Assembly: GCF_016861605.1 (NCBI RefSeq)
Contig: NZ_BOLM01000005.1
Coordinates: 124,001-188,000 of the forward strand
From: Levilactobacillus wangkuiensis
GTDB lineage: Bacteria; Bacillota; Bacilli; Lactobacillales; Lactobacillaceae
Length of the DNA: 64,000 nt
Direction of reading: 5' to 3'
Numbering within the stretch: the first letter of the stretch is position 1; every line of letters begins with the position of its first letter. The translations under genes were made by a program, and so were the position numbers. The notes under the pieces are model-generated. The model saw only the letters and a list, made by a program, of their open reading frames with translations. It did no database searches and was not told the DNA's origin. Below, piece by piece: positions 31,226 through 41,995 of the stretch.

Positions 31226-31424
31226 AAGACCCTCACTCCTTTTGATTGTATTGTACAACGATTTGGTTGGTGACCACAAGGCCCAGTTGTGGGAAAATTT
31301 GCCACCTCCCGAATAATTCCGAACAATCTTCTTTGCACTTCGGCGGCGAGGCCGTTATACTTTAACTTGTGCCGTTTTTTCGAATTCAAAAATAAATTTA
31401 TTTAATAGAAAGGTGTGTGCCGCA

Positions 31425-33131
31425 ATGTCTTTTGATGGTTCATTCACCCACGCCATGGTCCACGAGTTGAGTCAGACGCTCACGACCGGTCGCGTTAGTA
31501 AAATCAATCAGCCCTACGCCAACGAAATTGTCCTGACGATTCGGGCCAACAGCCACAACTATCCCATCCTTTTGTCGGCCAATCCGACCTACGCGCGGAT
31601 TCAAGTGACGCAGATTCCTTACGTCAATCCCCCCGTACCCACCAACTTTACCATGATCCTGCGGAAGTACCTGCAAGGCGCTATCCTAAAGGACGTCAGC
31701 CAAGTCGCTAACGACCGGGTCGTCCACCTGCACTTCACCTCCCGTAACGAATTGGGTGACCAACAGGAACTGCTCTTAATCATTGAAATCATGGCCCGTC
31801 ACAGTAACGTCATCTTAGTCGACGGCGCCTCCATGAAAATTTTAGACGCCATCAAGCACGTCGGTTCCGACCAAAACCGTTACCGGCTCCTACTGCCGGG
31901 GGCGCAGTACATCATGCCGCCAAAGCAGGACTTAGATGATCCGTTTGCCGGCGTCCGCGATGATCTAGACCAAACGATTCGGGATTACCCGAACCAGGAA
32001 GTCCTCGCCCAAACACTCCAGCACCAGTATCAGGGGCTGGGCAAAGATACGGCAGCGGCTCTGGCGGCGACGCTTCACGAAACGGGCGATCACGCCGAAC
32101 AGTTCCAACAGTTCTTTGCTGGCTTCGATAACCCGCAACCAACTCTGGAGATCTCACCGAAGAACAAGACCAGCTTCACGGCCTTTCCGTACCCCACGGC
32201 GGGCACGCAACAGTCTTCGGCCACGCTTAGCGAACTACTCGACACCTACTACCAGGACAAGGCCGAACGTGACCGGGTCCAGCAACAAGGCAGTGTCCTG
32301 ATTCGCGTCGTCCGCAACGAGTTGAAGAAGAACCGCACCAAGCTCAAGAAGCTCCAACGGACCTTAGCTGAGACCGAAAACGCCGACGAATACCGGATCA
32401 AGGGAGAAATCCTCACGACCTACCTGAACCAGGTCACCCGTGGCGAGACCGCGGTCACCCTGCCGAACTTCTACGACGAGAACCGGGACCTAAAGATTCA
32501 ACTATCAAACCAGTTGTCCCCTAACCAAAACGCCCAGAAGTACTTCAAACGGTACCAAAAGGCCAAGAACGCGGTCATCTACGTCAATGAACAGTTGAAG
32601 ATCACCCAGACCGATGTGGACTACTTTACCAATATCATGGCCCAAATCGAACTGGCCGCACCCAAGGACCTGATCGACATCCGCCTGGAACTTCAACAAG
32701 GTGGCTATCTCAGAGACCACGATCACCAAAAGAAGAGCAAGAAGCAAAAACGGCAAAAGGTCAGCAAGCCAGACCGCTTCACGGCAAGCGACGGCACCAA
32801 GATCTCCGTCGGGAAGAATAACTTGCAAAACGACCAACTCAGCCTCCACACGGCCAAACGCACCGATATTTGGCTTCACGTGAAGGACATGCCGGGCTCT
32901 CACGTGATCATTCACGCGGAACACCCGAGTGACGAGACCATTATGGAGGCCGCTAACCTAGCTGCCTACTTCTCTAAGGGCCGTGAGTCCAGCAACGTGC
33001 CAGTAGACTACCTGCCCGTTAAACGGCTGCACAAGCCAAATGGGGCCAAACCAGGGTACGTTATCTTCACGGGTCAGCGGACGGTCTACGTCACGCCCCA
33101 AAGCGACCTCGTAGAAAAACTGGCTGACTAA
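31425..33131 (+). CDS. rqcH: Rqc2 homologue RqcH (NFACT / fibronectin-binding-like protein)
   Basis: 568 residues. The NFACT-N domain (FDGSFTHAMVHELSQTLTTG, then GRVSKINQPYANEIVLTIR), a long coiled coil (about 280-440) and the C-terminal NFACT-R domain (GKNNLQNDQLSLHTAKRTDI, then WLHVKDMPGSHVII) are in the usual order. RqcH binds stalled 50S subunits with peptidyl-tRNA and adds C-terminal Ala tails. ATG 31425 is preferred to GTG 31413 for ribosome-site spacing. Old names are FbpA and PavA. Confidence 0.93.
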   Translation: MSFDGSFTHAMVHELSQTLTTGRVSKINQPYANEIVLTIRANSHNYPILLSANPTYARIQVTQIPYVNPPVPTNFTMILRKYLQGAILKDVSQVANDRVVHLHFTSRNELGDQQELLLIIEIMARHSNVILVDGASMKILDAIKHVGSDQNRYRLLLPGAQYIMPPKQDLDDPFAGVRDDLDQTIRDYPNQEVLAQTLQHQYQGLGKDTAAALAATLHETGDHAEQFQQFFAGFDNPQPTLEISPKNKTSFTAFPYPTAGTQQSSATLSELLDTYYQDKAERDRVQQQGSVLIRVVRNELKKNRTKLKKLQRTLAETENADEYRIKGEILTTYLNQVTRGETAVTLPNFYDENRDLKIQLSNQLSPNQNAQKYFKRYQKAKNAVIYVNEQLKITQTDVDYFTNIMAQIELAAPKDLIDIRLELQQGGYLRDHDHQKKSKKQKRQKVSKPDRFTASDGTKISVGKNNLQNDQLSLHTAKRTDIWLHVKDMPGSHVIIHAEHPSDETIMEAANLAAYFSKGRESSNVPVDYLPVKRLHKPNGAKPGYVIFTGQRTVYVTPQSDLVEKLAD

Positions 33132-33845: not shown

Positions 33846-36419
33846 TCAGATGGTGCGGTTGATGATTTGGTCGAGCTCGGAGGTGTCGCTGAGGTTCGTC
33901 AGCGTCAGCGCCTCGCTAGACCCAAACGCAATCGTCGCCCCAACTTCTTGATCCGTGGTCCCCGGCCGGTTTAACACGTGTAACTGCCGGAACGGGAAGG
34001 CCGCGTTCATCAAGGCGACCCGGGTGCTGTTCAGATCAATGCTGATTTTGGCCAGCTCCCCTTCGTCCAGCGTGCCAATGTGTTGCCGCGTCAGCATGCG
34101 GACCCAGTTGACCCCGGTAACCTTACTCAGAAAGGCCATCTCGGTCAACCGCGTCGGCCGCACGCCAACGACGACTAGCTGTTGTGAGTCATCGCTCTTG
34201 GGGGCAAAGAGAACTTGGATCATCCCCGTGACCTGCCGTTCACTCACGGCCTCCTTGGCCTGTTCGACCAGGTTGACGCGCTTGGCCTTGGGCAGTTCCG
34301 CCGGCATCCGGAAGGCCGTGACCTGAGCCAACGACTTGTTAATGCCGGGGGCAATCATGTCCATGACGCCGACCGCAATCTTCTGTTGCTTATGCACAAA
34401 CAGGCTGACGCCAATCGTCGCCATTTCCGGAGCGGGTTCGCCCGTTTCTTGGTCGGGTGGTAGGACGTGCAGGTTTATTGGCAATTTGCCCAACTCGCGG
34501 GTCAGGTAGTGCCGGTTCCCCGGGACGATGACGATGTCGGGGTGCTCGACCTGAATCACGTTGAGCACATCCCCCAGTTGAATCGGGTCGACGTACTGTT
34601 TCTCGGTAAATTCCGGTGCCACGCCCACGGCATTCGGGTTGGTATTCATCAAAATAGTATGGTACCCGGCGCGCTTCAGTTGTTTGAGCATTTCCGTCGT
34701 GAAGTATTCCGCCGCGGAGTTGGGGCCTAACTGATTCCCGCCCCGACCCAAGACCAGCGCGGTCCGGTCGCCCAGGGGCTGACTCTCATTTTCGTACTCG
34801 AAGGTACTGTAGTAGCCACTGAGATTCTCGGGAAATTCCCCGGCGGTCGGTTCGATCATCTTGTAGGTCGGCGTGATCTTGGCCTGTGCTGAGAGATGGC
34901 GAATCGTGGCCGTATCCGTTTGCCAGATACGGGCGATCATCCCGTCCCCGAACCCGTAGTACCGGGCCCGTTTTAGGATGGCAACGTCTAAGGGGTTGTC
35001 TTGAATTTCTTTTTCAATCGTTAACAAATGGCGGAGTTTCACGAAATAGTAGTTATCAATTTTCGTTAATTCGCTCAACTCTTCTGGCGCGTATCCCCGC
35101 CGCAAGGCTTCAATTAACACCAGAATTCGGTTCGCCAACGGATGGATCAGTTGCCGAATCATTTCCCCGTCGGTCAGATTGCTGACGGAGGGCAAGACAT
35201 CTCGTGGCGAGAACTGCGAGCTCCGCACGGCCTTTAACATGGCCTCTTCGACCGAACGACCCACGCCGACGGTCGAGCCCACGGCCTTCATGACGGTATT
35301 CAGATGCTGGTCGGCATCGGGGACCTCTTGAAAGGGCCAAATGGGAATCCGTACGCTCACGTGGTCGATGGTTGGCTCCATGATGGCGGTCTGTTTGACG
35401 TACTGGCTCGGCAGCTTGACGTCGACCAGCTTCTGGCCCAGCAGCAAGGCACCATTGACCAGGGCAATCGGATAGCCGGTCGTCCGAGCCGCCAATGCCA
35501 CGCCCCGCGAGAAGTATGGCGCAATCTTGGTCACGTAGAAGTGTTGGTTCGCCGGGTTCAGGGCAAAGTGCAGGTGTAAGACCCCGACGATGCCCAGCTC
35601 GGTCGCAATCCGAAACGTGGCGTCCCGCAAGTCTTGATACTCACGGTCGTTGAGCGTTTGGGGTGGCGTTACCAGAATGGAGTCGCCGGAGTGAATCCCA
35701 ATCGTATCGACGTTTTCCAAGCCGGCAATCAGGACCTCGGTGTCGGCGACGTCTCTGACGGCCACCATTTCGATTTCCTTGTACCCGATCACGCTGCGTT
35801 CCAGGGTGCACTGGTCAAAACGGGACTGTTGGAAGCCCTGCGTCAACGCGTTAAACATGTCATCCACGTTGTCACAGACGGTCCGGTTGGTGTCCAGTCT
35901 GGGCGCTACCGGCTTCACAATCAGGGGGAACCCAATCTTTTCGACCAGGCCCCGCGCCTCGTCGAGGGTACCCACGACTTGGGCCTCAATCACGGGCTCA
36001 TGAATTTCCTTGAGCGTGGCGTTCAAGTCGGCCGGATTGTTGATCTGCTGCAAGGTCGTGGTGGGCATCCCCAGCAGGCGCACGTCAAAGTTGGCCAGGT
36101 CGCCATTTTCAACCAGTTCCTGGGCAATTCGAATGCCTAGCAGGCCACCCAGTGTCGGCAAAATCGCATCGGGCCGGTCTTTTTCAATAATGTGACGGAC
36201 ATTAGCGGTTGTGACCGCCTGCACGTACATGTTGGTCGGCTGAATCTCTTCCAACGCGACGGAGAACGGGTTGTTGTCAATGATCAGGGTCCGCACCCCG
36301 TGCTTCTTAAAGCTGGTAATGATCTGGACCGTGGCACTATCGAGTTCCGTTTCGTGACCGATCTCGGTTGGCCCGCCGCCGATGATCAAAACTTTTTGAA
36401 TGTTATCCAAGTTTGGCAA
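33846..36419 (-). CDS. Degenerate carbamoyl-phosphate synthetase large-subunit homologue (probably catalytically inactive)
   Basis: 857 residues against about 1060 in CarB/PyrAb. The N-terminal half aligns throughout (PTLGG; ERSVIGYKEIE; GIHSGDS; PPQTLND; ATGYPIA-like). However, the ATP-grasp loop RPAFTLGGTGG is replaced by KPVAPRLDTNRT (169-180), and the metal/ATP motif IEVNPRVSR by VTKIAPYFSR (296-305). In the second half about 120 residues of the ATP-grasp N-lobe are missing, its IEVNPR is VVGVRPTR, and the C-terminal allosteric MGS domain is absent. The frame has no stops. It starts at TTG after GGGAGG and follows the carA-like gene. Confidence 0.85.
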   Translation of the reverse strand: MPNLDNIQKVLIIGGGPTEIGHETELDSATVQIITSFKKHGVRTLIIDNNPFSVALEEIQPTNMYVQAVTTANVRHIIEKDRPDAILPTLGGLLGIRIAQELVENGDLANFDVRLLGMPTTTLQQINNPADLNATLKEIHEPVIEAQVVGTLDEARGLVEKIGFPLIVKPVAPRLDTNRTVCDNVDDMFNALTQGFQQSRFDQCTLERSVIGYKEIEMVAVRDVADTEVLIAGLENVDTIGIHSGDSILVTPPQTLNDREYQDLRDATFRIATELGIVGVLHLHFALNPANQHFYVTKIAPYFSRGVALAARTTGYPIALVNGALLLGQKLVDVKLPSQYVKQTAIMEPTIDHVSVRIPIWPFQEVPDADQHLNTVMKAVGSTVGVGRSVEEAMLKAVRSSQFSPRDVLPSVSNLTDGEMIRQLIHPLANRILVLIEALRRGYAPEELSELTKIDNYYFVKLRHLLTIEKEIQDNPLDVAILKRARYYGFGDGMIARIWQTDTATIRHLSAQAKITPTYKMIEPTAGEFPENLSGYYSTFEYENESQPLGDRTALVLGRGGNQLGPNSAAEYFTTEMLKQLKRAGYHTILMNTNPNAVGVAPEFTEKQYVDPIQLGDVLNVIQVEHPDIVIVPGNRHYLTRELGKLPINLHVLPPDQETGEPAPEMATIGVSLFVHKQQKIAVGVMDMIAPGINKSLAQVTAFRMPAELPKAKRVNLVEQAKEAVSERQVTGMIQVLFAPKSDDSQQLVVVGVRPTRLTEMAFLSKVTGVNWVRMLTRQHIGTLDEGELAKISIDLNSTRVALMNAAFPFRQLHVLNRPGTTDQEVGATIAFGSSEALTLTNLSDTSELDQIINRTI

Positions 36420-36421
36420 GC

Positions 36422-37501
36422 TTATCCCTCCCGGCGTGCTGTCATGGCTTCCATAAATTCATCAAATAAATCGCGACTCTCGTGAGGACCCGGGGCGCCG
36501 TCCGCAAAGAATTGCACCGAAAAAGCCGGAAAGTCCCGGTGGCGTAACCCTTGGACGGTCCCGTTGATCAGGTCCACGTAGGTGGTGATCAGGCGGTCGC
36601 GGTCGATTGACTTGGCAACCACCGCGTACCCCTGACCCTGTGTCGCATAAATAATATCGTTGGTAATGATTCGGCGAATAGGATGACTGCTGCCGTGATA
36701 TTCAACCGGTAGCATGGTCAGCTCCGCCCCGTTGGCCAGGGCAAAGAGCTCGTGACCCAGGCCAATCGCAAAGAGTGGAATCTCCGCTTGGACCTCGCGA
36801 ATCATGTCGAGGACTCCTTCGCCGAGGTCGAGTGGTGAGCCGGGCCCGGTGGAGAGTAAGACCCCGTCCGGATCCAGGTTCAAGACGTCCTGGGCGCTGG
36901 CCGTCCACGGCAAGACCGTGACGTTACAGCGGCGCTCGGATAACTGCCGCAAAATCCCATGCTTCAGACCGAAGTCAATGACGACCACGTTTTTCCCCGT
37001 ATCCGGGTTCGGATAGGGCTTAGGCGTGGCCACCTGGTCGACTTGCCGGTTCGTCAGCACCGTGGCGTTCAGCTGATCAAAGGCATGGGCATCGGCCACA
37101 TCCACGATACTGCCCTTCATCGGCCCGTCTTCTTGGCGGAGCTTCCGGATCAGGTGGCGCGTATCAATGCCACTGATGCCGGGAATGTTGTGCTGCTGGA
37201 GAAATTCGTCAAGGGACAGCCGGGATAAACGGTTGGTCGAGATGTTCGTGACGTCTCGAACCACCATCCCCTTGGCCGTGGGCAAAATCGACTCGTAGCT
37301 ATCGTGGTTGATGCCAACGTTACCAATGGCTGGCTGGGCAAAGATAATAATTTGGTTGTGGTAGATTTGATCGGTAATCGTTTCCTGATAGCCTAATAGA
37401 TTTAAATTGGAGATAACCTCTCCGCTCGTCGTGGCACCGGCACCGAAGCCTTCACCGGCGTAGGCCGAGCCGTCTTCTAAAATCAAATAGCGTTTTGCCA
37501 T
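36422..37501 (-). CDS. Degenerate carbamoyl-phosphate synthetase small-subunit homologue (glutaminase triad lost)
   Basis: 359 residues, normal CarA/PyrAa length, with family landmarks IGNVGINHDSYES, GISGIDTRHL, VIDFGLKHGILRQL and STGPGSP. The glutaminase nucleophile motif GICLGHQ reads AIGLGHE (Gly247 for Cys). The QYHPEA motif carrying His and Glu reads QFFADG (Phe332 and Asp334). All three triad residues are therefore gone. ATG 37501 is chosen after a G5 ribosome site. It lies 22 bases after pyrR and two bases before the carB-like gene. Confidence 0.87.
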   Translation of the reverse strand: MAKRYLILEDGSAYAGEGFGAGATTSGEVISNLNLLGYQETITDQIYHNQIIIFAQPAIGNVGINHDSYESILPTAKGMVVRDVTNISTNRLSRLSLDEFLQQHNIPGISGIDTRHLIRKLRQEDGPMKGSIVDVADAHAFDQLNATVLTNRQVDQVATPKPYPNPDTGKNVVVIDFGLKHGILRQLSERRCNVTVLPWTASAQDVLNLDPDGVLLSTGPGSPLDLGEGVLDMIREVQAEIPLFAIGLGHELFALANGAELTMLPVEYHGSSHPIRRIITNDIIYATQGQGYAVVAKSIDRDRLITTYVDLINGTVQGLRHRDFPAFSVQFFADGAPGPHESRDLFDEFMEAMTARREG

Positions 37502-37523: not shown

Positions 37524-38087
<564 letters not shown>

Positions 38088-38103
38088 TTAGCGTAAGTGC
38101 AGG

Positions 38104-38168
38104 AAACGGGCGCATTTCTTCGGCAAAATGGTGAAGAAACCCGCCCGCCTGATTCGGCAAACCCGTTT
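38104..38168 (-). promoter_or_regulatory. Long hairpin in the pyrR leader
   Basis: AAACGGG (minus strand 5' arm at 38168-38162) pairs with CCCGTTT (38110-38104), and an inner stem TTTCTTC/GAAGAAA closes a loop. It lies between rluD and pyrR. I see no PyrR-binding loop of the usual CCNGNGAGG type and no T tract, so it may be a partial terminator of rluD or a changed attenuator. Confidence 0.45.
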
Positions 38169-38194
38169 ATCTGATTAGTGCTAGCTTAAGAAAA

Positions 38195-39118
38195 CTAAAT
38201 TGCTTTGTCAACCGGTAACCCCGCCTGCTGGCGCAAGTGGCGCACGGCCTTGGCGAAGTTTTCGGGAACCGGCGCGGTGAAGTCTAACTGTTCACCGGTC
38301 GTGGGTTGCTTAAAGCCCAATTCACGGGCGTGTAGGAACTGGCCCGCCCCCTTTAGCGTGTGCTTGGGGCCGTACAACGGGTCACCCGCAACGGGATGGT
38401 TGATGTAGGCCATGTGGACGCGGATCTGATGGGTCCGGCCAGTTTCCAAGCGACAAGCGACCAGGGAATAATTCCCATAACGCTCCAGCACCCGGAAATG
38501 GGTCACGGCTGGCCGCCCGTCAGCGACGATGGCCTGCTTCTTGCGGTCCTTCGGTGACCGGCCCAGGGGCGCGTTGATGGTCCCGTTCTCTTCCTTGAAG
38601 TTGCCGTGCACGATGGCCACGTACTCTCGCAGATTGGTCTTGGCCTGTAACTGGGCCGACAAACTCTGATGGGCGTGATCATTCTTGGCCACCATCAACA
38701 GGCCCGAGGTGTCCTTGTCGATGCGGTGGACGATGCCGGGCCGCAGGGTGCCGTTAATGCTCGACAACGGGCTGTGGTACAGCAGCGCGTTAACCAGCGT
38801 ATGGTCCGGGTGCCCGGGGGCGGGATGGACGACCATCCCCTGGGGCTTGTTGACCACGATAACATCGTCATCTTCGTAAACAATGTCGAGGGGAATATTT
38901 TCGGGGGTCAAATCCAAAGGAACGGGGTCTGGCAGTGCAATGTGCACCGTCGCGCCGACCTTGGGCTTGGCCTTAGGCTTGACTGGCTGGCCGTCGACCG
39001 TGATTTGGCCGGCCTCGATGGCATTTTTCGCCTGTGAGCGGGAAATCGTGTCCACGTTATCCGCCACCAATTTATCCAGCCGGTCTGAAGTCGTTACTTG
39101 AAAATCTGTTTCTTGCAT
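38195..39118 (-). CDS. rluD: RluD-family 23S rRNA pseudouridine synthase
   Basis: 307 residues. An S4 domain (DRLDKLVADNVDTISRSQAK) is followed by the synthase domain with catalytic Asp in HRIDKDTSGLLMVAKN. The C-terminus GRTHQIRVHMAYINHPVAGD is typical of RluA/RluD. ATG 39118 overlaps the lspA stop (TGATG) with GGAGG seven bases upstream. Synteny lspA-rluD-pyrR is usual in Firmicutes. Confidence 0.92.
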   Translation of the reverse strand: MQETDFQVTTSDRLDKLVADNVDTISRSQAKNAIEAGQITVDGQPVKPKAKPKVGATVHIALPDPVPLDLTPENIPLDIVYEDDDVIVVNKPQGMVVHPAPGHPDHTLVNALLYHSPLSSINGTLRPGIVHRIDKDTSGLLMVAKNDHAHQSLSAQLQAKTNLREYVAIVHGNFKEENGTINAPLGRSPKDRKKQAIVADGRPAVTHFRVLERYGNYSLVACRLETGRTHQIRVHMAYINHPVAGDPLYGPKHTLKGAGQFLHARELGFKQPTTGEQLDFTAPVPENFAKAVRHLRQQAGLPVDKAI

Positions 39119-39582
39119 CACTGTGCCTCCCGTCGATCGGCTAAGAACACGCCAATCGCGATTAAGATGACGCCGACCGTTAAACAGCTGTCGGCGAAGT
39201 TAAAGATTGGAAAATTAATAAAATCGAGTTGGAACATGTCGACCACGTAGCCTTGCAGCAGGCGATCAATAAAGTTACCAATCGTGCCCGCCATCATCAG
39301 AGTCAGGCCGAGTTCCTCTACCCAGTGTTCTTTCTGATTGCGGTACTGCCAGAAAAAGTAGCCCATGATGCCTAACGCCACAATGGCGATGACCGTAAAG
39401 AACCACATTTGGCCCTGTAAAATACTCCAGGCGGCCCCGTCGTTACGCAGGTGCGTGAGCGACAGGAAGCCGGGGATGAGTGGGTGCTCGCCACCAAGGG
39501 CGATGTTGACCACTACCGCGTGCTTGATCCACTGGTCAATGACCACCAGTAGCACGATTAAGATTGTATCTGCAATCAGCAT
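39118..39582 (-). CDS. lspA: Lipoprotein signal peptidase (signal peptidase II)
   Basis: 154 residues, four TMs. The two catalytic Asp are in GTIGNFIDRLLQGYVVDM and FNFADSCLTVGV. ATG 39582 follows AAAGGTG. LspA cuts prolipoprotein signal peptides at the membrane face after diacylglyceryl transfer. It is the first gene of the lspA-rluD-pyrR-carA-like-carB-like run. Confidence 0.94.
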   Translation of the reverse strand: MLIADTILIVLLVVIDQWIKHAVVVNIALGGEHPLIPGFLSLTHLRNDGAAWSILQGQMWFFTVIAIVALGIMGYFFWQYRNQKEHWVEELGLTLMMAGTIGNFIDRLLQGYVVDMFQLDFINFPIFNFADSCLTVGVILIAIGVFLADRREAQ

Positions 39583-39689
39583 AAAATCCGGAACACCTTT
39601 CCTATAAGTCGTTACCGAAAAGTATACCAGAAAATGGCCCCCCGCGCCCTTCTCCACACTAGAAAATTCCCACTTTGTCTGAATCCTTC

Positions 39690-40531: not shown

Positions 40532-40760
40532 TTCAGAGGCTTGTCGCTCACGTGTCTGGCGACACAGTAGTCCAACATGCCGGTTAGGCACTCCTACTCG
40601 TAGTGGCAACATCATCGGGTAATTGACAGCTACCCGTTTAACTATCAGGATCTACCCAACAGTTGTTAGCTTTTTAATCTTTGGTTTCTTGACACCACTC
40701 AACCATTCTTGGCCCAACATCTCAATATTCATTGCCCCTAATCTGTCATCGTTACAACGA
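40492..40760 (-). ncRNA. Predicted TnpB guide RNA (omega/reRNA) and its guide
   Basis: In this family the RNA covers the tnpB 3' end and the right end of the element, and the guide is the flanking host DNA. Here several hairpins lie after the tnpB stop (CGGGTA/TACCCG, TGCC/GGCA, TGTCGC/GCGACA and the terminal CTGAATT/AATTCAG). The flank directly beyond TTGAC gives the guide CGAGAATTGTGTTCAATATC, which is transposase gene sequence. The 5' limit is not known. Confidence 0.5.
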
Positions 40761-41995
40761 TACTGGCATTGAGCACACCAATACTCGTGAGTTTCGTGAT
40801 GACGATTAGTCTTCTCAACTAGGCCACACTTCGGACATCTCTGTGAAGTGAATGCTGGATTCACTTTTACGACGGTGCTCTGAATAGCCTGAGCCTTGTA
40901 CGTTAAGAATGATTCTAGCTGGAAGAAAGACCAGGAACGATGGCTGTTTCGTAAGGACTTAGGCAGATCATCGGTGTTGAATGTTACGTTGGTTAAGTCT
41001 TCCAGGACAAAAAGTGTGTGTGAGCCATATCGTGTAACGAGTGTCTTAGCTAACCAATGATTCACATCGGTCATCCAGCGGTTCTCTCGTTGCGCTAGCC
41101 GTTTCAACTTTTTCTTGGCAGATTTAGTACCTTTACTTTGTAGTTGCCGGCGAATCTCCAGGAACTTCTTTCGTCTAAGTAAGATTTTTTTACCCTCAAA
41201 GAATAGTGCCTTGCCTTCACTATCAAAGATAGTCGCTAGAAAGCGCAGGCCACGGTCAATACCCACAATTTGAGGGCTATCCTTGGGATTGAAATCACTA
41301 CTTTCCTTTGTGATACCAATATGCAAAAACCACTTCCCCTGGGTGTGGACCAGCTTAGCGGTACCCAGTTTCCAATCCTCGGTGAAGTATTTCTCGAATC
41401 CTTTATCAGTGAATCCCAACTTAGTCCGTTTACCTAGAGTGGTTATCGAGATTTGTTGCATGCCTTCTACAAAAGAATAATTGCTATGGCGAACCAAATC
41501 CGCTTGGGGTCGCCGAAACTGGATGGGTTTCACCAACCAGTTCAGGTCTCTAGGAACTTGAATCCACTTGTGTTCTTCGTTCTTGTAACAGTAAGGATGC
41601 TGTTTCATCTGTTCCTGAACTGTCTTGTAACGAGCCACCACTGTCCGAAAGACAGACTGGACCATCTGACTATTGAGTGGTGATTCTTGCCTAAATATTT
41701 TGTACAGATGGTGATTGATCTTTAACCAACTTAACTGAAACTCGTGGTCAAAAATCCATTGACTAACAACATTAGCTAATCGTTGATACTCTTGACTCAT
41801 TGTTAGAAATTGTTCTGCTTGATTCGTGTCTGGATAGAGTCTCAACTTAATTGTTCGCCCTAGTTTAACCAATGGATACCTCCCCTGTAGATTGGATTAA
41901 GTATACCATGTTTAGCCTTGCAGGGGAACATATGTTTCAAAAGATTATTAAGTTCTGGCATTCATCCCGCGATTAAAATCGCAGGTTTTCTGCTT
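40512..41995 (-). mobile_element. IS200/IS605-type element with tnpB only
   Basis: The right end, read on the minus strand, closes with the hairpin GCCTCTGAATT/AATTCAGGGGC and the terminal TTGAC (40516-40512), a common form for these elements. The left end has the hairpin GCGATTTTAATCGC near 41968-41981; the exact left limit is uncertain, about 41985-42005. There is no Y1 transposase gene (tnpA), so the element depends on one elsewhere. It lies inside the 3' end of the IS4-like gene on its right-end side, while the left-end flank is unrelated DNA. Confidence 0.75.
40652..41872 (-). CDS. tnpB: TnpB, RNA-guided nuclease of an IS200/IS605-type element
   Basis: 406 residues; TTG 41872 is six bases after GGGAGG. 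The helix-turn-helix start (RTIKLRLYPDTNQAEQFLTM), RuvC motif I (IVGIDRGLRFLATIFD), motif II with Glu (LFVLEDLTNV), the CPKC/CAQC zinc ribbon and motif III (NDDRLGAMNI) are all present, so the D-E-D nuclease triad looks intact. TnpB cuts DNA matching the guide next to a short motif and so helps the element to persist. Confidence 0.9.
   Translation of the reverse strand: MVKLGRTIKLRLYPDTNQAEQFLTMSQEYQRLANVVSQWIFDHEFQLSWLKINHHLYKIFRQESPLNSQMVQSVFRTVVARYKTVQEQMKQHPYCYKNEEHKWIQVPRDLNWLVKPIQFRRPQADLVRHSNYSFVEGMQQISITTLGKRTKLGFTDKGFEKYFTEDWKLGTAKLVHTQGKWFLHIGITKESSDFNPKDSPQIVGIDRGLRFLATIFDSEGKALFFEGKKILLRRKKFLEIRRQLQSKGTKSAKKKLKRLAQRENRWMTDVNHWLAKTLVTRYGSHTLFVLEDLTNVTFNTDDLPKSLRNSHRSWSFFQLESFLTYKAQAIQSTVVKVNPAFTSQRCPKCGLVEKTNRHHETHEYWCAQCQYRCNDDRLGAMNIEMLGQEWLSGVKKPKIKKLTTVG

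Follow-up and report, generated by a model that had tools for sequence, protein, structure and literature searches.

The closest described system to the genes reported here is the glutamine-dependent carbamoyl-phosphate synthetase (CPS) CarAB/PyrAA-PyrAB, known from E. coli (PDB 1jdb) and from the pyr operons of Lactobacillales. A 64,000-nucleotide stretch of Levilactobacillus wangkuiensis (assembly GCF_016861605.1, contig NZ_BOLM01000005.1, positions 124,001 to 188,000; hereafter the window) carries next to pyrR a gene pair, carA' and carB', that is homologous to both subunits of this enzyme, shows the same gene order, and sits where relatives have the CPS of their pyr operon; a CPS fold is predicted for CarB'. 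Unlike CarAB/PyrAA-PyrAB, the pair has neither the catalytic Cys and His nor a complete ATP site or MGS domain, and it persists in hosts that no longer have the first part of the pathway. The ammonia-dependent CPS I also has a GATase domain without the catalytic Cys and keeps both ATP-grasp activities. An inactive glutaminase is common to CPS I and the pair, whereas in CarB' neither ATP site is complete. Judged from sequence, the pseudoenzyme status of carA'B' is well supported by homology, loss of catalytic residues, shared chromosomal place, and selection.

A second described system is PyrR2 of Lactiplantibacillus plantarum, the likeness being a second PyrR that adjoins carA'B' in a Lactiplantibacillus genome. 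PyrR1 is described as responding to pyrimidine and PyrR2 to inorganic carbon, and the excerpted text of that account does not mention adjacent CPS-like genes (PMC3582564). For L. sanfranciscensis, the excerpted text reports that all pyrimidine-synthesis genes are present and only dihydroorotase is broken (PMC3231932). Among the matches listed from the open-licence literature, as far as their excerpts go, no description of a dead CPS pair was found.

In the window, pyrR, carA', and carB' form a trio on the minus strand. The first gene, pyrR (37524..38057, 177 amino acids), lies 22 bp upstream of carA' (36422..37501, ATG start, 359 amino acids), a glutaminase-dead CPS small subunit. It is followed by carB' (33846..36419, TTG start, 857 amino acids), a CPS large subunit in which both ATP-grasp sites are disabled and the MGS domain is missing. 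The preliminary description of this DNA had spoken of two full open frames with translation signals beside an intact pyrR, and this was borne out: both frames are open, both starts are preceded by G-rich, Shine-Dalgarno-like stretches, and PyrR is intact by family score (equivalog family NF003548, 270.3 bits vs. a cut-off of 218). Pfam and NCBIfam assign the pair to the CPS small- and large-chain families, and both sequence and predicted fold homology place it in the CPS homologous superfamily. CarA' lies above the NCBIfam cut-offs for active small subunits (TIGR01368, 327.6 vs. 307.35 bits; PRK12838, 402.7 vs. 221 bits), and therefore annotation-based metabolic models could credit species with a carbamoyl-phosphate synthesis that they lack. 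CarB' falls below its own cut-off, with a partial match to TIGR01369 (531.8 vs. 1027 bits, about half). A second, intact carAB, proposed earlier as a point to check, was not found in the window's genome (3.14 Mb, 99.99% complete), which holds one CarA above the cut-off and no other match of CarB length.

Catalytic sites were numbered by E. coli CarAB (L120), with site numbers and residue roles as we take them to be. CarA' carries C269G and H353F and thus has neither the Cys nor the His required of an active CPS. At position 355 it has Asp, which suits the Glu/Asp of the triad; E355D is no lesion, since 20 of the 21 intact CarA rows carry Asp there and E. coli is the exception. Of the earlier statement that the small subunit had lost Cys, His, and Glu, the first two losses hold and the third does not. 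The exchange of Cys269 for Gly is found throughout the short-form set (54/54 rows: the window, four Levilactobacillus, and 49 from other genera) and in 17/17 further copies of other forms at the locus. L152, L155, and L157 were placed in the canonical set of the site table and are actually dead copies. Sensing of glutamine via the C269G pocket, considered as a function, was weakened, as Ser47, Gln273, Asn311, and His312 are replaced differently across clades.

In the first ATP-grasp half of CarB' the Gly loop is replaced and, relative to E. coli, the exchanges Q285H, E299K, N301A, and R303Y are present, so that the site an active CPS requires is not there. Also absent are residues at about 663-683 and 700-760 and almost the whole MGS domain (938-1073), and with them the second ATP-grasp site and MGS domain required of an active CPS. 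The E. coli site table and these gaps agree with the earlier claims that ATP-grasp motifs are lost in both halves and that the MGS domain is gone. The figure given for the second ATP-grasp domain, about 120 residues lost, was too high: the gap is 82 residues in one alignment and smaller in another, in which 21 of the 61 positions from 700 to 760 have a counterpart, leaving an alignment-dependent deficit of roughly 60-80 residues. Across the 54 short-form rows, E299 is replaced by Lys in 48 and by Arg in 6. All 54 retain D246 and S247, 52 retain E215, 49 retain H243, and 42 retain Q285. The AlphaFold2 model of CarB' (predicted local distance difference test, pLDDT, 88; predicted template modelling score, pTM, 0.90) has as its best PDB match the E. 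coli CPS large chain (1jdb_B, TM score 0.90 on the query). The model of CarA' is weaker (pLDDT 76.8, pTM 0.54). Effector sensing through the MGS domain was rejected for the window, the domain being gone there and in the short form.

Within Levilactobacillus the pair is strongly conserved. CarB' is free of stop codons in 35/35 genomes searched, and the 34 others are 84-99% identical to the window; the closest named relatives found, Levilactobacillus lanxiensis and L. mulengensis, are 99% identical in CarB'. At 31 named loci of the genus, CarA' is 94-100% and PyrR 88-100% identical to the window (one PyrR is short). Ratios of nonsynonymous to synonymous substitution rates (dN/dS) were estimated by the Nei-Gojobori method for pairs with dS of 0.05-1, which share branches and are not independent. 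The medians were 0.011 for CarA' (36 pairs) and 0.017 for CarB' (17 pairs), next to 0.017 for PyrR (43 pairs), 0.014 for RluD (19 pairs), and 0.074 for LspA (91 pairs). Low dN/dS is thus combined with lost catalytic residues, as expected of a pseudoenzyme under selection. The selection on an intact coding sequence that had been suggested from the window is supported, and the picture is the opposite of the dN/dS near 1 and stop codons in relatives that had been named as speaking against it.

A canonical CarB was found in 4/35 Levilactobacillus genomes, one with a TAG counted inside the matched stretch, and PyrB above the cut-off in the same four. Weaker PyrB matches alone, which were taken for other carbamoyltransferases, occur in 20 other genomes of the genus. 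Neither an intact CPS (CarB) nor aspartate carbamoyltransferase (PyrB) was found in 31/35, one of which (G008) is 72% complete. For these 31 the usual way into pyrimidine synthesis seems closed, yet the pair is kept; it would therefore contribute there neither to de novo pyrimidine synthesis nor to the work of another CPS.

The finding is real and wider than first noted. Large-subunit searches covered 397 Lactobacillaceae genomes and, separately, 395 Lactobacillales genomes (73 Lactobacillaceae and 322 others), with two candidates scored per genome in the latter. Full-length short-form CarB' matches were obtained in 38/73 Lactobacillaceae and 0/322 other Lactobacillales; the best match among the 322 was a 1060-amino-acid canonical gene (3.7e-223), and the weakest short-form match seen was 1.9e-237. 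In a census of 40 Lactobacillaceae genera, with one to a few genomes each, a CPS without catalytic residues stands in the same locus order, lspA-rluD-(pyrR)-(pyrP)-carA*-carB*, in 34. The view of the pair as an oddity of Levilactobacillus was rejected on this distribution. The CarB' profile alone was discarded as a census tool (21/40 genera), because it misses full-length dead copies that are seen only by residue inspection. An intact CPS or pyr operon occupies the locus in five genera (g12, g13, g25, g30, and g31), and in g29 an intact CPS copy (L223) has neither lspA nor rluD nearby. A two-subunit enzyme has thus seemingly turned pseudoenzyme and been kept in most sampled genera of a bacterial family that is used in food and health.

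Neighbour counts are limited to each stretch, as stretches of other genera end where they were cut. In 38 such stretches, rluD, carA', and carB' are found together in all 38, lspA in 37, pyrR in 30, and the NFACT gene in 25, which supports conservation of the degenerate pair beside pyrR, a point proposed earlier for checking in lactobacilli. Eleven more short-form stretches contain rluD in 10 and pyrR in 10. Another set, of 18 stretches, centres on second CarA copies and similar cases; one is L223, the intact CPS elsewhere, and in the other 17 lspA and rluD adjoin carA*, with a CarB that is full-length and mutated, or shortened otherwise. These 17 vary more among themselves than the short form does. 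In g6, five genomes (G333, G241, G160, G109, and G390; L110-L112 and L150) have an intact CarB on the contig that carries the short-form CarB', some 10 kb away at most. A canonical large-subunit gene at L158 (G062) contains one in-frame TAG and was therefore read as 853 amino acids.

Most simply read, the dead pair is a relic of the ancestral pyr operon, because it shares its chromosomal place with the intact operons of relatives. Six other families were sampled for comparison (L235-L240): pyrR, pyrB, carA, and carB belong to an intact operon in all six stretches, pyrP and rluD are there in five, and lspA in four; rluD precedes the intact operon in 5/6. Similarly, pyrR, pyrB, carA, carB, pyrP, rluD, and lspA are all at the locus in g12, g13, g25, g30, and g31. 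A gene that we presume from its sequence to be uracil-permease-like precedes carA* in 7/17 non-short-form loci, and the L217 copy matches the gene that intact operons have between pyrR and pyrB. In a maximum-likelihood tree of 83 CarA rows, made by a quick search and with long branches flagged, the dead copies require at least two changes. Inactivation, including the Cys-to-Gly exchange, therefore probably took place at least twice at this locus; alternatively, intact genes acquired by transfer may have replaced dead ones. L225, on a long branch, may be a third case. The locus thus offers a natural case in which catalysis was lost repeatedly and the protein retained. A separate route to a dead CPS is seen in L231 (G066, g33; labelled 'anc' in the tree), where Cys269 is kept, His353 is Leu, position 355 is Asn, and E299 and N301 are changed.

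As a tentative overall reading, which we favour at somewhat below even probability, carA'B' would be a remnant of the ancestral pyr-operon CPS, non-catalytic and under strong purifying selection, that forms a sensor or regulatory complex with PyrR. The CPS at the lspA-rluD site would have been stripped of catalysis and retained for a non-catalytic job. CarA' and CarB' may still form a CPS-like heterocomplex, because every such locus read encodes both proteins and the CPS architecture is preserved in the fold predicted for CarB'. Further along this line, the complex might bind a metabolite or partner and, together with the PyrR encoded alongside it, adjust pyrimidine uptake. RNA elements resembling the Rfam PyrR element (RF00515) occur elsewhere in 35/35 Levilactobacillus genomes at E up to 0.001, and above the curated cut-off in 15/35. 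In the window's genome, one match scores 53.8 bits, marginally below the cut-off of 54, and is immediately followed by a uracil-permease-like gene; PyrR therefore plausibly regulates uptake. Downstream of a second match (56.9 bits) come a TnpB-like gene and a permease-like frame.

Several observations weigh against this reading. The regulatory role with PyrR is an inference, and what is known here of a physical association is gene order. Moreover, the loci read for g3, g6, g17, g27, and g37 have no pyrR, so adjacency is common but not obligatory. No Rfam PyrR element precedes the window's pyrR, and PyrR attenuation of the window's own operon was rejected on that ground; RF00515 was detected upstream of pyrR in only 2/12 related stretches scanned. 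Residues of the glutamine pocket and the ATP sites differ between clades, which argues against one shared small-molecule ligand there. One non-short-form copy, L213 (g21), keeps the complete set of the first ATP site and lacks the second, and E299 is kept in several others. For distant pairs with the window, at dS >1, CarB' dN/dS reaches 0.03-0.06. Finally, the inorganic-carbon link comes from another genus, which has an intact CPS.

That link concerns a genome of g38, assigned to Lactiplantibacillus by its lactate dehydrogenase, in which three of the 297 positions listed differ from PDB 1ez4, presumably of L. pentosus. It encodes two full-length PyrR, one in the pyr operon (L180) and one beside carA'B' (L103), the latter of which would correspond to PyrR2. 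We know of no explanation for the route by which PyrR2 senses inorganic carbon. In Lactiplantibacillus, the complex might tune the pyr-operon response to inorganic carbon ascribed to PyrR2. The excerpted literature gives pyrR1, pyrB, pyrC, pyrAA, and pyrAB as lp_2704 to lp_2700 (PMC7645587) and pyrR2 as lp_1782 (PMC7911632), both in keeping with this arrangement. That CarA'B' acts as a sensor of inorganic carbon or carbamoyl-phosphate state for PyrR2, a whole enzyme that two or more lineages of one family would each have converted into a receptor on their own, is a speculative idea to which we give a low probability; carA'B' nonetheless offers a testable partner for PyrR2.

Among other explanations, a structural or moonlighting role of the ancestral CPS unrelated to PyrR, laid bare once catalysis had moved to another operon, is doubtful at about one chance in four, and no other rival comes as high. 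It would fit the repeated inactivation at one locus, as loss of one of two functions, and the missing pyrR in several genera, but we know of no such second function of a bacterial CPS. A new enzyme, in which the first ATP-grasp half performs another ATP-grasp or nucleotide reaction, is unlikely: E215, D246, and S247, and mostly H243 and Q285, are kept in short-form CarB, whereas the short form no longer has the Gly loop or the Mg ligand E299, and the retained set of residues differs in other clades.

Slightly less likely still is a modulator, whereby the dead subunits join a live CarA or CarB and tune its activity. A CarB match above the cut-off is present in 314/397 Lactobacillaceae genomes, a count that mixes full-length dead and live copies, and a PyrR2 mutant of L. 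plantarum reportedly suffers from a shortage of carbamoyl phosphate at low CO2. However, the pair is still strongly selected in Levilactobacillus, where the large majority of genomes yielded no intact CarB or PyrB. Least of all do we expect a decaying remnant, that is, a CPS left after acquisition of a second pyr operon and on its way out. Its position looks like that of a remnant, CarB has been cut down differently among genera, and a few genomes (e.g., G191) have no CarA at the threshold used. This explanation is already disfavoured and very improbable, given a dN/dS of around 0.01-0.02, on a par with PyrR and RluD, the intact CarB' frames throughout Levilactobacillus, and the occurrence of the dead pair across most genera sampled.

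Upstream of the trio, the leader between rluD and pyrR (38058..38194, minus strand) contains a hairpin conserved in the genus, as aligned for the window and 30/31 Levilactobacillus loci (14 rows listed), with no match in Rfam, the PyrR site included. A promoter and terminator scan gave no excess over shuffles (5 vs. 3.6 and 10 vs. 8.0). The conserved neighbours on the same strand are rluD (38195..39121), which marks the ancestral pyr-operon site, and lspA (39118..39657), both identified by homology and synteny. Downstream, an NFACT/fibronectin-binding-like gene (31413..33131, plus strand) is a convergent and frequent neighbour; the names lspA, rluD, and NFACT are those we presume for these genes, alongside homology and synteny. 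Closely similar TnpB-like genes of 406 amino acids are found in the window (40652-41872) and in L254 (2674-3894), where the copy sits between the PyrR RNA element and the permease-like frame.

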